Positions 1-7,160 of a stretch of DNA of 7,160 nucleotides are shown in pieces. The stretch is from the NCBI GenBank assembly GCA_016219235.1, contig JACRBO010000216.1, positions 1-7,160 of the forward strand, given 5' to 3'. The notes below the pieces were generated by a model that was not told the DNA's origin, did not search any database, and was given only the letters and a program-made list of their open reading frames with translations. A program made the translations under genes and the position numbers. This DNA is from Chloroflexota bacterium. Its GTDB lineage: Bacteria; Chloroflexota; Anaerolineae; Fen-1058. Position 1 is the stretch's first letter, and each line of letters starts with the position of its first letter.

Positions 1-349
1 GACGTTCGCTTATCCCTATGGCTATTACAGTCCGGCAGTGCGTGAGTTAGTGCAGGCCGCCGGGTTCACCTCAGCCTGCGCAGTCAAGCATGCGCTGAGC
101 ACCACGACCGATGATCGCTTTGCGTTGGCGCGGATCATCATCTCGCCGCAGACCGATGTTGAGCGTCTGGCCGATCTGCTGGCGGGCCGCAACTTGCGCA
201 TTGCGCCGGCCGGGGAGCAGCTCTGGACGAAAGTGTGGCGGCTGATTCGGCGGCTGCGATGGCGTTTGACGCCAGCGCACATGGCTGACCTGTCAGGCAA
301 GACGCGGCTTCAGACCATCCTGTCACGCTTCAATCAATGGCTGGCCTGA
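1..349 (+). CDS. Polysaccharide deacetylase (NodB-type), C-terminal part; 5' end outside window
   Basis: The reading frame is open from the first bases (first full codon at base 2) to the TGA at 347-349, giving about 115 residues. The start lies upstream of the window. The first visible residues, TFAYPYGYYSPAVRELVQAA, followed by GFTSACAV, match the late conserved part of NodB-homology carbohydrate esterases (family CE4), where the F-x-[YP]-P-[YF]-G loop is followed by a helix and the 'AGF..A.T' strand. These enzymes remove N- or O-acetyl groups from polysaccharides, usually outside the cytoplasm. The metal-binding Asp-His-His motifs would lie upstream and cannot be checked. The last 60 or so residues (from about LLAGRNLRIAP) are a basic, arginine-rich tail that I do not recognise as a domain. 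Its stop lies inside the next gene (13-base overlap), which suggests translational coupling. An internal GTG at 38 is not a plausible start because the conserved frame extends upstream of it. Confidence 0.8.
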   Translation, partial: TFAYPYGYYSPAVRELVQAAGFTSACAVKHALSTTTDDRFALARIIISPQTDVERLADLLAGRNLRIAPAGEQLWTKVWRLIRRLRWRLTPAHMADLSGKTRLQTILSRFNQWLA

Positions 350-1440
350 CGGCTTTACCGGCCGCCCTGGAGCGGAAAGCCGATCGGCTGCAGGCACAGG
401 CGTTTACGGTCATCAGTCCCGCGCCGCGCGCGTGGTGGGGCGAAGTGCTCACAGTTGATCCGGATGCGATCGTGTCTCAGACGCCGACCTGGCTCGACTG
501 CCTCTGCGCGACTGGCGATTACGCGGATGCGAGCCGCGCGTATGAGTGGCCCGACGGGCGGCGATTGTTGCTGCCGATGGTGCGGCGACGGCACTGGCCG
601 GCGGCGCTGACGATGCAGGCCTCGCAGCCCGACGGCTGGGGCATCGGCGGGCTGCTGGGGACGCAGGCCATCACACGCGATGATGTGACCGCGGTGATGA
701 CTGACCTGCTTCAGCAAGGCGCTCTGCGCACATGCATCCGGCCTAATCCTTTGTCGGGCGCGATCTGGACCGCGGCGCAGCTACCCGGCGTGCAGGTCAT
801 TCCGCGCCTGGCGCACGTGCTCGATCTGAGCGGCGGTTTCGATCGAGTCTGGACGCAGCGCTTTAGCAGCGCCACGCGCAACAAGATTCGGAAGGCGGAA
901 CGATCGGGCCTGGTCGTCGAATGTGATACGACGGGTCGCCTGGTACCGATCTTCTATGGCCTGTTCCTGCAATCGATCGAGCGCTGGGCGCAGCAGCAGC
1001 ATGAACCGCCGGCGCTGGCGCGCTGGCGGGCCACTCGACGCGATCCGCTGCGCAAGTTTCAGCTGCTCGCTCAGCAGTTGGGCGAGGCGTGCCGCATCCG
1101 GGTGGCGTGGCTCGATCGACAACCGGTCGCGGCGATGATGGTGCTGCAAGATAAAAACGCGCACTACACCCGCGGGGCGATGGACAAAACGTTAGCGACC
1201 TCGACCCGCGCGAACGATCTGTTGCAGCGACTCGCGATCGAAGATGCCTGCCGGGCAGGCTGTCGCACTTATCATATGGGCGAGTCGGGCGTATCGACGA
1301 CGCTGGCTAACTTCAAAGAACGCTTTGGCGCGGAAGCCTGCTCGTATGCAGAGTATCGAGTGGAACGCTGGCCCATTACGCAGATCGATCGGCGGCTGCG
1401 CGGTCTGGTGAAGCGCCTGATAGGCTTTAGAGATGTCTAG
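337..1440 (+). CDS. FemAB/GNAT-like acyltransferase (BioF2-like acetyltransferase domain)
   Basis: The protein has 367 residues. The fold is suggested by family-typical stretches: an N-terminal half resembling the first GNAT-like lobe (about residues 24-160, with a substrate-recognition part around WLDCL and GWGIGGLLG), then RNKIRKAERSGL (181-192), the strand VAWLDRQPVAAMMVL (256-270), and the C-terminal HMGESGVSTTLANFKERFGAE (313-333), whose 'FK.RFGA' ending is typical of FemAB-like Acetyltransf_6 proteins. No signal peptide or membrane segment is seen, so it should be cytoplasmic. Such proteins transfer an acyl or aminoacyl group to an amine; in exopolysaccharide clusters they often sit beside a polysaccharide deacetylase, as here, but their substrate is mostly unknown. 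The ATG at 337 overlaps the previous gene by 13 bases and has no clear Shine-Dalgarno sequence, which fits coupled translation. The residues before about 24 are not conserved-looking, so a slightly later start is possible. Confidence 0.8.
   Translation: MAGLTALPAALERKADRLQAQAFTVISPAPRAWWGEVLTVDPDAIVSQTPTWLDCLCATGDYADASRAYEWPDGRRLLLPMVRRRHWPAALTMQASQPDGWGIGGLLGTQAITRDDVTAVMTDLLQQGALRTCIRPNPLSGAIWTAAQLPGVQVIPRLAHVLDLSGGFDRVWTQRFSSATRNKIRKAERSGLVVECDTTGRLVPIFYGLFLQSIERWAQQQHEPPALARWRATRRDPLRKFQLLAQQLGEACRIRVAWLDRQPVAAMMVLQDKNAHYTRGAMDKTLATSTRANDLLQRLAIEDACRAGCRTYHMGESGVSTTLANFKERFGAEACSYAEYRVERWPITQIDRRLRGLVKRLIGFRDV
1246..1260 (+). repeat. 15-bp palindrome inside the acyltransferase gene
   Basis: GCCTGCC (1246-1252), one G, then its exact reverse complement GGCAGGC (1254-1260). 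It is G+C rich and could form a tight hairpin in RNA, but it is inside a gene, lacks a T-tract and is not a terminator. Chance in G+C-rich coding sequence is the simplest explanation. Confidence 0.4.
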
Positions 1441-2240: not shown

Positions 2241-3173
2241 GTGAACTCGCTCATGCGCAAATTCCTGGCCATAGTCAGTCTATGGATGATCAGCCTCTCG
2301 CTCGATGGTTGCCTGTCGCAAGGCCTGGTTCAACATATTCCGATCATGATCCCGGCCCGGCCAACACCCGCGCCGACGCCCACGGCCATACCGCCCGTCA
2401 CGCCGATCGGGCAGATCGGCGGGTGGGATCTGATCTTCAGTGATGAATTTAACGGGACGGCGCTCAATACCGGCCGGTGGACGACCTGTTACTGGTGGGG
2501 CAAGCAGGGTTGTACGATCGCCACCAACCATGAACTGGAATGGTATCAACCCGATCAAGTCCTGGTGGCCGACGGCGTGCTTCGACTGCGAGCGCAGCCG
2601 CGCACGCAGACAGCCTCTGATGGAAAAGTCTATGACTATACTTCCGGGGTCATTACGTCAGGCCGCGCCAGCTATGACCGAACGCAGCCGGTCAAGTTTT
2701 CGTTCACGTATGGTTACGCGGAGATTCGAGCGAAGATTCCAACGGGCAAGGGTCTGTGGCCGGCCTTCTGGCTGTTGCCGATCGATCACACTTCGCGGCC
2801 CGAGATCGATGTGATGGAGATCATCGGCGATGAACCGCAGGTCGTTCATCTGCGCCTTCACTATCTCACGGCCGACGGTGAGCGCGGCGATAAGGGCGGC
2901 AAATGGATCGGCCCCGATTTCTCCGCAGGCTGGCACACTTTCGCCATCAACTGGCAGCCGCAGGCGCTGGTCTGGTACGTCGACGGCGTCGAGCGTTGGC
3001 GTTACACGGACCAGGCCACGATTCCAGCGGAGCCGATGTACCTGCTGGCGAATCTGGCGGTGGGCGGCGACTGGCCAGGCGCACCGGATGCCTCGACTCA
3101 GTTTCCGAGTGACTATCAGATCGATTACGTGCGGGTGTGGCAAACAGACGCAGCCGCCCGGCCGGCGAATTGA
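2241..3173 (+). CDS. Family 16 glycoside hydrolase, predicted surface lipoprotein
   Basis: The protein has 310 residues from GTG 2241, or 306 from ATG 2253, which gives a cleaner signal peptide beginning MRKF; neither start has a good ribosome binding site. The N-terminus is a short basic stretch, a hydrophobic core (about 7-21) and LDGC with Cys24, a plausible lipobox though Asp at position -2 is atypical. A Pro/Thr/Ala linker follows (about 38-56). The GH16 domain spans about 60-302: SDEFNGTALNTGRW at the start, KGLWPAFWLLP (170-180), and the catalytic motif EIDVME with nucleophile Glu188, Asp190 and acid/base Glu193. The concluding DYQIDYVRVW is typical of the family. Cys83 and Cys91 could form a disulfide. 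GH16 enzymes cleave (or transglycosylate) beta-1,3/1,4-glucans or galactans; the exact substrate is not predictable here. Beside a flippase and decorating enzymes, a role in trimming or releasing the secreted polysaccharide is likely, by analogy with endoglycanases encoded in other exopolysaccharide clusters; nutrient glucan degradation is the alternative. Confidence 0.9.
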   Translation: MNSLMRKFLAIVSLWMISLSLDGCLSQGLVQHIPIMIPARPTPAPTPTAIPPVTPIGQIGGWDLIFSDEFNGTALNTGRWTTCYWWGKQGCTIATNHELEWYQPDQVLVADGVLRLRAQPRTQTASDGKVYDYTSGVITSGRASYDRTQPVKFSFTYGYAEIRAKIPTGKGLWPAFWLLPIDHTSRPEIDVMEIIGDEPQVVHLRLHYLTADGERGDKGGKWIGPDFSAGWHTFAINWQPQALVWYVDGVERWRYTDQATIPAEPMYLLANLAVGGDWPGAPDASTQFPSDYQIDYVRVWQTDAAARPAN

Positions 3174-3176
3174 GCA

Positions 3177-5564
3177 ATGTTTAATGATGGGTCGTTAAGC
3201 ATGTCTGCTTTCACGCGACGATTGGCCGCGCTCCACTTCGAGCGATTCATCGATCACCTGCGGACGCCGTTGTATCGCAATGGTTACGCGCTGGTCTTTA
3301 GCTCGGCGGTCACTTCGGCGCTGGGGCTGGTGTACTGGATCCTCGCGGCGCGGTATTACACCACGGAGGTGATCGGCCTGAATGCGGCGGCGCTGTCGGC
3401 CATGATGTTTATCTCGAACCTGTCGCAGTTGAATTTGATGAATGCGCTCAATCGCTTTGTGCCTACCGCCGGCCGGACGACGGCCCGATTGGTAGGCTCG
3501 GCTTACATCATCAGCGCGCTGGTCGCAGGCGCGGCCAGTCTGATTTTTGTCCTGGGCGTCCGGGTGTGGACACCGACGCTGGAAGCGTTTGTGTCGGGGT
3601 TTGGCGGGTGGTTCGTGGTGGCCACAGCGATGTGGTGTATTTTTGTGCTGCAAGACAGCGCGCTGACGGGTCTGCGTCAGACCACCTGGGTGCCGATCGA
3701 GAATCTGGTGTTTGCAATCGGCAAGGCGATTTTGCTGGTGGCATTGGCGGCTGCGCTGCCGCGCTATGGCGTGCTGGCCTCGTGGATCATTCCGTTGATC
3801 GCGATCAGTGTGCCGCTGAACTGGCTGATCTTTCGACACCTGATCCCGCGGCACGTCCAGACCACCGCTCAAGTCGCGGCGCCGGGCGGGTGGAGACAGA
3901 TCGCGCGCTATGTCGCCGGTGATTACGTCAGTTCACTCGCATGGATCGCCACCGTCAACGTAATGCCGCTCGTCGTCGTGGAGCAGCTCGGCGCGACCGC
4001 CAACGCCTATTTTTATTTGAGTTGGACCGTCGCCTATACCCTGTATCTGATCAGCCGCAACATGGGCATGTCGCTCATTGCGGAAGCCGCGCTGGAGCCG
4101 GATCGACTGTATGCCTACAGTTACCGGGTGCTGATCCAGACGGCGCGCCTGCTCGTCCCGATTGTAACGGTGCTCGTTATGGGGGCGCCGCTCATTTTGC
4201 AGATATTCGGCAGGAACTATGCCGCCGACAGCACGACGCTGCTGCGCCTGTTAAGTCTGTCGGCGCTGCCGCAGATGGTGATTGCCCTGTATCTGAGCAT
4301 CGCCCGCGTGCAGCGCCGCATGATGGCGATTGTGGTGGTTCAGGGCGCGCAGTGCGCGCTGGTGATTGGGCTGGGGAGTTGGCTGTTGGAGCGGAGCGGC
4401 CTCGACGGGCTGGGCTGGGCGTGGCTGATCGCTCAGACGAGCGTGGCGGTGGTTTTGCTGTTTACGGAACTGCGGGCAGCCTGGCTGGTAAACCTGCCAT
4501 TGGGCAATCTGTGGCGGGTGCTGGCCGCGCCACGCCGGTGGTGGCAGGCGCGAGACAATCACCGCCGCGCGGCCGAAGCCACCGAGTTAATGCGGACCGT
4601 CGCATCAACGATCGCCTTGACGACGGAGCCGGATCCGACGACGACGTGGAATGTGCAAGACTTGATCGGGTCGTTGAACGATATGACCGTCGCCAATCTG
4701 GGACCGATCGACCAGCCGCCGACCGCGATCCTGAAGCTGGCTCATTCTGAGCGTGCGGCAATGAATCTGAAAACGCAGGTCAAAGTGCTTACGCGGCTGC
4801 GGGCTGATTCGCGGCTCGACGGACTAACGGCGTTGATGCCGGCCATCTTGACGAGCGGCGAAGCCGCCGACCGGTTTTATCTTATCGAGCGACACCTGCC
4901 CGGCATTGACGGCCGCCATTTGCTGGGCAATGTGACCCTGCGGACCTGTTTGCAGGCGGCTGCGGCTAATACCATCGCGCAACTCCACCGGGCAACAGCG
5001 TCGACGGCGTTCGTCAATGATGACCTGTTGACCCGCTGGATCGATCGGCCCTTGCAGGCGATCCGGCCGGTTGCGATCCGGCACGATCGAGCGGGTGAAG
5101 GCGCGCGCGCACTCGATCGGTTGGCCGCCGAATTGAAGAGTTCGCTCATGGGGCGGCGGGTGTCGGTCAGTTGGATTCACGGTGACTACATGCCCGGCAA
5201 TATTCTGGCGACCGCCGACGGCGCGCGGTTGACGGGCATCGTCGATTGGGATCTGGCCGCCGCCGGTGAGTTGCCGCAATTGGACTTGATGCACTTCCTG
5301 TTGTCGATGCGGATGCTGGTCGAGAATCGCGAGATGGGCGACGTGGTGCGCGAACTGTTGACGCGGGAGAAATGGACGACGCAGGAGTTGGATATATTGA
5401 TCGAGGCGCAGGCGGCGTTGCCCGGCGAAGTGGTTGAAACGCGAACGCTGATTCTGCTGAGCTGGCTGCGGCATATCGCGCGGAATCTGACCAAGTCCGA
5501 TCGGTATGCGGGCAACTGGTTGTGGCTGACGAAAAATGTCGAGGGTGTGCTGCATCACATCTGA
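3177..5564 (+). CDS. Polysaccharide flippase (MOP/Wzx-like) fused to APH-like kinase domain
   Basis: The protein has 795 residues, against about 400-500 for an ordinary flippase. Residues about 35-435 contain roughly twelve hydrophobic segments, beginning YALVFSSAVTSALGLVYWIL with the following TTEVIGLNAA typical of Wzx/MOP-family lipid-linked oligosaccharide flippases. A charged, Arg-rich linker (about 450-475) leads to a soluble C-terminal domain resembling aminoglycoside/choline kinases: AILKLA with the likely ATP-binding Lys520, the Brenner-type loop HGDYMPGNIL with catalytic Asp670 and Asn675, and IVDWD with metal-binding Asp690. These key residues are intact, so it may be active rather than a pseudokinase. 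At the helix-C position where related kinases often carry Glu, the sequence LKTQVKVL has Gln, which may reduce activity or be normal for this subgroup. The kinase part would lie in the cytoplasm if the bundle has an even number of helices and its N-terminus is inside. Start: ATG 3177 lies three bases after the previous stop; ATG 3201 (MSAFTRR) is an alternative that loses only eight unconserved residues. Substrate of the kinase is unknown. Confidence 0.85.
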   Translation: MFNDGSLSMSAFTRRLAALHFERFIDHLRTPLYRNGYALVFSSAVTSALGLVYWILAARYYTTEVIGLNAAALSAMMFISNLSQLNLMNALNRFVPTAGRTTARLVGSAYIISALVAGAASLIFVLGVRVWTPTLEAFVSGFGGWFVVATAMWCIFVLQDSALTGLRQTTWVPIENLVFAIGKAILLVALAAALPRYGVLASWIIPLIAISVPLNWLIFRHLIPRHVQTTAQVAAPGGWRQIARYVAGDYVSSLAWIATVNVMPLVVVEQLGATANAYFYLSWTVAYTLYLISRNMGMSLIAEAALEPDRLYAYSYRVLIQTARLLVPIVTVLVMGAPLILQIFGRNYAADSTTLLRLLSLSALPQMVIALYLSIARVQRRMMAIVVVQGAQCALVIGLGSWLLERSGLDGLGWAWLIAQTSVAVVLLFTELRAAWLVNLPLGNLWRVLAAPRRWWQARDNHRRAAEATELMRTVASTIALTTEPDPTTTWNVQDLIGSLNDMTVANLGPIDQPPTAILKLAHSERAAMNLKTQVKVLTRLRADSRLDGLTALMPAILTSGEAADRFYLIERHLPGIDGRHLLGNVTLRTCLQAAAANTIAQLHRATASTAFVNDDLLTRWIDRPLQAIRPVAIRHDRAGEGARALDRLAAELKSSLMGRRVSVSWIHGDYMPGNILATADGARLTGIVDWDLAAAGELPQLDLMHFLLSMRMLVENREMGDVVRELLTREKWTTQELDILIEAQAALPGEVVETRTLILLSWLRHIARNLTKSDRYAGNWLWLTKNVEGVLHHI

Positions 5565-5575
5565 CCGATCTGAAA

Positions 5576-7160
5576 ATGTGGGGCAAGTCATTGAATACAA
5601 GCACGTCTAATTTGCAGCGACGGCTGTGGCTGCGCACCGCCAACTGGCTGACCCCCTGGTCGGGCCAGGCGCTGCTGCCGGTGCTCATCGCCGTGGTCGT
5701 TTGGGCGCTCGCGCTGCCCACCATCGACGTCAGGCGCATGACCGACCTGGGCTTGCTGTCGGTCTTTCCGGTGTCGATCTATCTGGCGCTGGCGCTGCTG
5801 ACGCTGGGCTTCTGCCTGGCCGTGCAGCGGCCGCAGACGCCGCCGATGGTGCTGGCGATCTACGTGATCGTGCTGATCGTCATCATCCACGGGACGCCCA
5901 ACATTCTCTACGGCACGCTGCGCTACTCGTGGGCATGGAAACACGTCGGGATTGTGGACTACATTCAACGGCACGGCAGCGTCAATCCAGAGATCGCCGC
6001 GCTGGATGCCTATCACGATTGGCCGGGGTTCTTTGCCTTTAACGCGCTGCTAACCGAGGCGGCCGGGTTTACCAGTGCGCTGGCTTACGCCGGTTGGGCG
6101 CCGGTCTTTTTCAACCTGCTGAACTTTGGCGCGTTGCTGCTGCTCTTGAGCACCTTCACGACCGATCGGCGTTTGATCTGGCTGAGCGTCTGGATTTTCT
6201 TCCTGTCAAACTGGGTGGGGCAGGATTATTTCTCGCCGCAAGCCTTGAGCTTCTTTTTCTACTTGATCAGTCTGTATGTCTGTCTCAAATGGTTCAGCGC
6301 CGGCGCGCCGCGCGTTCGATCGATCCCCTTCAGGTGGCGCGTACCGATCGGGCTGCAAACAACTCTTCACAAATTGATCGGCGATCGCCCATTACGGACG
6401 CCCGAACCTGCCGCCGCCGCTTCGTCGCCGCTGCAACGCGTCGGCCTGATGCTGATCGTCATCCTGATCTTTCTGGTCATGACGTCCAGCCATCAACTGA
6501 CGCCGTTCATGACGATCAGCGCGCTTGCGGTGCTGGTGATTTTCCGCCGCTGCAACGCCACGTGGCTGCCGGTCTTGATGACGATCATCCTGGCGCTATG
6601 GATTTTGTATGGCGCGGAAGCTTTCCTGCTCGATCGGCTGGAGTTCATCTTTAGTTCAGTCGGTCAGTTTGCCAGCAACCTCGACGCGAACCTGATCGAC
6701 GTAAATCAGATCAGCGCCGGTCAAAGACTAGTCTCACTGATGGGCCGCGCGCTGACGGGCGGTCTGTGGCTGCTGGCCGTGCTGGGCGGCCTCCGCCGGA
6801 TGCGCCAGGGCCATCGGGATTGGCGGCCGTTCCTGTTATTGATCGCTGTGTTAAGCCTGCCGTTAATCAACTCCTACGGCGGCGAAATCCTGTTCCGGGT
6901 CTATTTGTTCGCGCTGCCGTCGGCGGCGTTCTTTGCCGCCGCATTGATTTACCCGGATGCCGCCGTGACTGAATCGCGGCGCACGCCGTGGGTGGCCGTG
7001 GCCGTAAGCGCGGTTTTGCTGATCGGTTTTGTGTTTGCCTATTACGGCAAGGATCGGCAGTATTATTTCACCCCGAATGAAGTAGCCGCCGCGGAATTTC
7101 TGTATGGTACTGCGCCGCCCAACTCACTCCTGATTGAAGGCACGCGCAACTACCCGACCC
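5576..7160 (+). CDS. Polytopic membrane protein, putative GT-C-type glycosyltransferase or polymerase; 3' end outside window
   Basis: The frame is open from ATG 5576 to the window edge, giving 528 residues without a stop. About eleven to thirteen hydrophobic segments can be placed, among them about 33-50, 61-82, 90-105, 175-193, 200-211, 222-239, 288-303, 311-324, 330-346, 390-405, 418-431, 440-459 and 471-489. A large loop after the third segment (about 106-150) carries acidic and histidine residues and ends YHDWPGFFAF. Further distinctive stretches are NWVGQDYFSPQ (212-222) and SSHQLTPF (304-311), which I recall from uncharacterised membrane proteins of actinobacterial and Chloroflexota polysaccharide clusters. 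A basic cytoplasmic-looking loop lies at about 243-285. The topology and context suggest a lipid-phospho-sugar-using glycosyltransferase (GT-C) or an O-antigen-polymerase-like protein, but no catalytic motif proves this. The part after about 490 looks like the start of an extracytoplasmic C-terminal domain. The start follows the flippase stop by 11 bases without a clear Shine-Dalgarno sequence; TTG 5591, preceded by GGGG, is a weaker alternative. Confidence 0.75.
   Translation, partial: MWGKSLNTSTSNLQRRLWLRTANWLTPWSGQALLPVLIAVVVWALALPTIDVRRMTDLGLLSVFPVSIYLALALLTLGFCLAVQRPQTPPMVLAIYVIVLIVIIHGTPNILYGTLRYSWAWKHVGIVDYIQRHGSVNPEIAALDAYHDWPGFFAFNALLTEAAGFTSALAYAGWAPVFFNLLNFGALLLLLSTFTTDRRLIWLSVWIFFLSNWVGQDYFSPQALSFFFYLISLYVCLKWFSAGAPRVRSIPFRWRVPIGLQTTLHKLIGDRPLRTPEPAAAASSPLQRVGLMLIVILIFLVMTSSHQLTPFMTISALAVLVIFRRCNATWLPVLMTIILALWILYGAEAFLLDRLEFIFSSVGQFASNLDANLIDVNQISAGQRLVSLMGRALTGGLWLLAVLGGLRRMRQGHRDWRPFLLLIAVLSLPLINSYGGEILFRVYLFALPSAAFFAAALIYPDAAVTESRRTPWVAVAVSAVLLIGFVFAYYGKDRQYYFTPNEVAAAEFLYGTAPPNSLLIEGTRNYPT

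Follow-up and report, generated by a model that had tools for sequence, protein, structure and literature searches.

The window analyzed here (the whole stretch of 7,160 nucleotides, a Chloroflexota contig, JACRBO010000216.1) encodes a MOP/Wzx-type flippase and an APH-type kinase in a single chain (Table 1), an arrangement that we confirmed as a real observation. Both parts belong to known families. We tentatively propose, with a probability of roughly 0.45, that the kinase phosphorylates a lipid-linked glycan (or its sugar) just before it is flipped, i.e., that the protein would act as a two-domain glycolipid export enzyme.

Table 1 Features of the 7,160-nucleotide window and of the fusion gene that it contains.
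Feature	Position	Strand	Remarks
C-terminal end of polysaccharide-deacetylase-like gene	2..349	+	Weak PgaB match (E 3.8e-4), below the PgaB cut-off
FemAB-like GNAT transferase	337..1440	+	PF13480, E 3.6e-13
Methyltransferase near TIGR04290	1452-2240		In the window
GH16 hydrolase	2241..3173	+	PF00722, E 5.6e-25; lipoprotein-signal-like start (by eye)
Flippase-kinase fusion gene	3177..5564	+	795 aa; open frame; homologues of equal length
MOP/Wzx-type flippase domain	3267..4496	+	Residues 31-440; 12 long helices
Junction	4497..4643	+	Residues 441-489; long helix 442-478 and low-confidence loop 483-488 (structure model)
APH-type kinase domain	4644..5561	+	Residues 490-795
Lys520	4734..4736	+	K in 48/54 aligned relatives, R in 4
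HGD(668-670)....N675	5178..5201	+	H and G in 54/54, D in 51/54, N in 52/54
IVDW (688-691) with Asp690	5238..5249	+	D in 51/54, W691 in 54/54
Multi-helix protein, GT-C/oligosaccharyltransferase-like, incomplete	5576..7160	+	Downstream of the fusion gene

The likely true start of the fusion gene is position 3201. Structure models were made of the whole fusion protein and of one relative of the downstream GT-C-like protein. Both domains of the fusion protein were modelled confidently, and in the model's helix list the junction helix is charged and leads from the 12 long helices to the kinase. The modelled membrane part has the 12-helix MOP fold of Wzx/PST flippases and is a probable exporter of lipid-linked sugar chains; PF01943 did not match the window protein at E 0.01 and matched 10 of 54 relatives (best 5.4e-8). 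The solved chains of WzxE (409–418 residues) stop after the membrane part, whereas here the kinase continues in frame, and the teichoic acid flippase TacF differs from the modelled flippase in having 14 helices with a TM13-14 groove (PMC13385700). As the helix number is even, both ends should lie on one side of the membrane. This side may be cytosolic, which fits the count of basic residues in loops set by hand (15 in seven loop stretches of the termini side and 5 in the six opposite stretches). The mean identity of relatives to the window protein was 54% for the flippase, 42% for the kinase and 19% for the junction (residues 440-489), so sequence conservation is lower in the kinase than in the flippase.

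The kinase part matched PF01636 with 61.1 bits (curated cut-off, 23.2), and 54 of 54 relatives matched this family at E 0.01. Its nearest solved folds were APH(2'')-IIIa and APH(2'')-IVa (15–17% identity), in a type of fold-match list that one domain can occupy, which leaves room for kinase families outside it. Unlike the APH(2'') enzymes, the window kinase is fused to a flippase within a glycan locus. It carries the APH motif set, i.e., an ATP lysine, an HGD....N loop and a DW metal motif; by their roles in the APH family, we take Lys520 to be the ATP lysine and the loop ending at N675 to be catalytic, and Asp690 is presumably a metal ligand. K520, D670, N675 and D690 are all present in 44 of the 54 aligned fusions, the last three together in 50, and 25 of 29 aligned free-standing kinase relatives keep all four. 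Given the open frame, the confident model and the fused relatives, we agree with the preliminary description that a full MOP/Wzx bundle is followed in the same frame by an APH-like kinase with its catalytic residues; that description would have been undone by the lack of a kinase fold after residue 480, and the model places such a fold there, with APH nearest. Separately, P0070 and P0074, which form a small branch, have T and G at positions 675 and 690 in a domain that is still full-length, and are possibly pseudokinases within the family.

To learn how widespread the fusion is, the protein was searched by scoring the 7995 candidates sharing most words, which returned at least 127 homologues, 120 of them examined. 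Among the matches listed, 86 of these 120 cover at least 85% of the chain; one is the window's own copy, and the others range from 81% down to 36% identity. A genome collection was also scanned with an alignment, and the best 80 of 557 relatives were used, with loci classed as fused if the kinase match started less than 400 bases after the flippase match. One locus (L035) with a run of masked or unknown bases inside the flippase was left out of the counts, and another (L031), whose contig stops inside the flippase, out of one comparison. Among the matches listed, 23 of 79 loci were fused, and these included loci from Anaerolineae, Caldilineaceae, Doudnabacteria, Acidimicrobiia, Ilumatobacter, Nocardioides, Streptacidiphilus and Mesorhizobium. 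The window's source contig is just 7160 bases long, which would fit a merger of two genes by sequencing or assembly, the other outcome named beforehand as fatal to the fusion. However, the frame is open across the join in all 23 listed fused loci, isolates included, and the listed homologues mostly cover at least 85% of the chain; because relatives keep this open frame, a merger is very unlikely, with a chance close to nil.

The fusion is rare among Chloroflexota genomes. In a set of 301, including the genome at the centre of L001 and with at most three candidates scored per genome, 47 matched the fusion profile at E 1e-20, mostly in the flippase part alone, and three also showed the kinase. 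In the L001 genome it is fused. In G120 (contig L026), one frame (L026:3-4046) encodes the flippase, an inserted segment and then the APH kinase; the insert matches PF02223 (thymidylate kinase) weakly (E 8.6e-4) and is an apparent nucleotidyltransferase plus P-loop kinase. In G005 (contig L027), the genes are separate: those for the flippase and the GT-C protein are preceded, ~3.3 kb upstream, by one for a 373-aa kinase.

The free-standing kinase profile, with at most five candidates scored per genome, matched 3 of 400 Chloroflexota genomes (E 1e-20), each time within the flippase cluster, and 9 of 396 Actinomycetota genomes, one being the fused L014. The surroundings of the other eight Actinomycetota kinases were inspected. 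Flippase and GT-C homologues lie within ~10 kb of the free kinase in L124 and L127, as they do in L027; the L127 kinase sits on a long branch of the kinase-domain tree, and the L123 contig ends at the kinase. In L125 (5969-7974) and L126 (8612-10623), an APH-type kinase gene overlaps a GT2 gene by four bases, with no flippase match in the fetched stretch, and because of this overlap the wider kinase family itself seems tied to glycan synthesis. The weak kinase matches in L128, L129 and L130 also had no flippase match in the fetched stretch.

The nearest published layout is that of mycobacterial MviN (MurJ), in which a MOP flippase leads into a kinase-like domain on the cytosolic side (PMC12599244); MviN differs in kinase type and activity. 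That domain is described as a Ser/Thr-type pseudokinase without catalytic motifs and deficient in ATP binding (PMC12599244), whereas the window kinase is APH-type with catalytic residues and does not belong to the MviN type (ActPs3). MviN is thus an analogy of layout, not of mechanism, and the parallel drawn in the preliminary description survives in the former sense and not in the latter. A MviN-like pseudokinase was rejected for most members based on residue conservation and kept for the P0070/P0074 branch. A regulatory domain would sense ATP or phosphorylate a protein and thereby open or shut the flippase, as the MviN scaffold regulates peptidoglycan synthesis. The MviN layout is consistent with such a role, as is the full-length domain that P0070 and P0074 retain after losing catalytic residues, but the conservation of all four residues in most fusions, the APH-like fold and the wider-profile kinases with no flippase match in the fetched stretch (L125, L126 and L128-L130) make it unlikely. 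The suggestion that nucleotide sensing gates export lost ground for the first of these reasons, the four residues being kept in 44 of 54 relatives.

The phylogenies point to repeated rearrangement. Fused and unfused rows are interspersed in a quick tree built from 131 flippase domains (15 changes of the two-state label; for the fused group, well supported branches force at least 10), where an "unfused" database protein may still have a kinase in trans on its contig. Free and fused rows are likewise mixed in a quick tree of 91 kinase domains (nine changes), so that joins were probably formed or lost on many occasions. For the flippase the fusion is optional, since membrane-only relatives intermingle with fused ones, and flipping does not need the kinase in cis, as relatives lacking a fused kinase reach 58% identity. 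Two individual proteins, P0097 with a cut-short kinase part and P0094 with an apparently frame-changed one, suggest that the flippase can persist as its kinase degenerates.

A flippase signature tracking the kinase was also considered and is not supported, as the invariant charges (R93, D160, K183 and R377) are identical with and without the kinase, which counts against the favoured reading. Ten flippase positions differed in raw counts between the two groups (Y290, W256, Y287, N92, R380, I301, W436, N81, D249 and R104), and none was significantly associated with the kinase over nine independent pairs, a test of low power that could hardly reach significance because the residue differed in fewer than six pairs. 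The strongest leaning was that of W436 at the junction (3.6 pairs with versus 0.1 against; median p 0.125), and Y287 leaned the opposite way (0.3 with versus 2.6 against).

The fusion gene lies in a glycan locus. The first ATG of the downstream multi-helix gene is 11 bases after the fusion gene's stop, and a relative of its product was modelled as GT-C/oligosaccharyltransferase-like with a GT-C membrane fold; no Pfam family matched more than one of 18 members of this protein family, and PDB gave no sequence match at E 1. Homologues were found in Chloroflexota and Actinomycetota loci. Among the matches listed, 20 of the 23 fused loci had one, which in 16 was on the same strand and no more than 1.5 kb downstream. 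The same 23 listed loci contained homologues of the FemAB-like protein (n = 14), the GH16 hydrolase (n = 14), which perhaps trims the exported glycan, and the deacetylase (n = 15), and no detected homologue of the window's methyltransferase (n = 0). Of the 61 neighbour frames scanned, 24 matched GT2, and the models matched included MftF (25 members), AglG (16) and AglJ (8), the latter two stemming from archaeal lipid-linked glycan pathways.

The survey of domain architectures recommended in the preliminary description recovered MOP flippase-APH pairings, plus two triple fusions, P0067 (1377 aa) and P0112 (1244 aa), in which the flippase, the APH kinase and a GT-C-like protein form a single chain (GT-C-like parts 42% and 38% identical to the window's, respectively). 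In many Streptomyces loci (including L042, L044, L052 and L064) the flippase and the GT-C homologue share one frame of ~1220-1540 aa; L052 and L064 have no kinase and carry a Pro/Ala/Thr-rich low-complexity linker where other lineages carry it. The 38 Streptomyces-group loci included the GT-C homologue in 34, the deacetylase in 36, and FemAB and GH16 in none.

This genomic context, together with the structure model, fits a kinase working for the glycan pathway while tethered to the flippase, and with the fusion sitting in a glycan locus, export and phosphorylation may well be coupled as was claimed at the outset. A sugar or a lipid carrier had been suggested as substrate, of which we favour the former, as part of a glycan. 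Were the kinase instead to act on a precursor, it would phosphorylate a free sugar, amino sugar or amino alcohol for activation by a nucleotidyltransferase and incorporation into the glycan, and the fusion would place supply near use. The PDB relatives of the kinase profile are mostly named small-molecule kinases, the fructosamine kinase and choline kinase models matched weakly in six and one of 54 relatives, respectively, and L026 has its apparent nucleotidyltransferase and P-loop kinase between the flippase and the APH kinase, all of which agree with this alternative. LicA is an APH-type choline kinase. A further parallel is that LicA feeds the TacF pathway (PMC13385700). However, it is hard to see why a kinase for a soluble precursor would be fused to a flippase or form a triple fusion with a GT-C-like protein, and no nucleotidyltransferase was found among 25 of the 62 families matched by the 61 neighbour frames; we regard a precursor kinase as possible, though doubtful.

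Recycling of the carrier, with the kinase phosphorylating polyprenol or a polyprenyl headgroup, would suit a domain that adjoins the flippase and whose helix, in the model, may lie near the membrane. No APH-type polyprenol kinase turned up in this analysis, and elsewhere the kinase gene is paired with a GT2 gene, with no flippase match nearby, so we give a lipid carrier kinase a slim chance.

Phosphorylation of the lipid-linked glycan is favoured because WbdD and TacF lend plausibility to phosphate on a glycan as a signal for export. In E. coli O9a, a polyprenyl-linked mannan receives a terminal phosphate from WbdD on the cytosolic side, ahead of export, and in WbdD mutants the polymer is made and export is blocked (PMC3482155). 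The MOP flippase TacF reads phosphates on its cargo and holds back cargo that is undecorated (PMC13385700). Neither system is the same as the window protein: WbdD has a eukaryotic-type kinase fold, is served by ABC export and has a methyltransferase, not a transporter, as its fusion partner (PMC3482155), and in the TacF/Lic phosphocholine pathway the small-molecule kinase acts upstream as a separate protein (PMC13385700), whereas here the kinase is fused. The window's methyltransferase is a separate chain, unlike the kinase-methyltransferase pairing of WbdD, and since its homologue was not detected in the 23 listed fused loci, a strict WbdD-like pair is not conserved. A WbdD-style methyl-phosphate cap made by this methyltransferase is not supported, for the same reason. 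The Streptomyces polydiglycosylphosphate (PMC7831098), considered as a candidate for the product, was set aside, as no result of this analysis ties it to these loci.

In the proposed mechanism, glycosyltransferases of the locus would assemble a glycan on its polyprenyl carrier in the cytosolic leaflet. The long helix would keep the kinase at the flippase's cytosolic mouth, where the kinase would spend ATP to phosphorylate this glycan or the sugar just added, the flippase would move the phosphorylated lipid-linked glycan to the outer leaflet, and the GT-C enzyme of the next gene would there transfer it to an acceptor. The least secure step is phosphate as a licence for flipping.

No published flippase-APH fusion was found in a search of open-access literature. 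The Actinoplanes imp cluster contains a flippase, an Alg6/Alg8-like protein and GTs, and "phosphotransferase" is absent from the main text about it (PMC12691653); the lipocone paper mentions both domain types and, in the text available, does not describe this fusion (PMC12419801). The fusion is visible in databases, because JGI annotation names both halves for several relatives.

How a MOP flippase tells a complete lipid-linked glycan from an incomplete one is still an open question, and TacF shows that phosphate on the cargo can serve as the signal. A glycan kinase, a MOP flippase and an outer-leaflet GT-C enzyme might even form a joined assembly line in which the flippase's own kinase licenses export by phosphorylating the lipid-linked glycan, a new class of machine that we offer as a speculative idea. 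If the kinase is active, the coupling of decoration, flipping and transfer could be tested directly on a single purified protein, which in two cases also includes the next transferase. If true, the proposal would suggest that Chloroflexota and Actinomycetota have surface glycans bearing phosphate.
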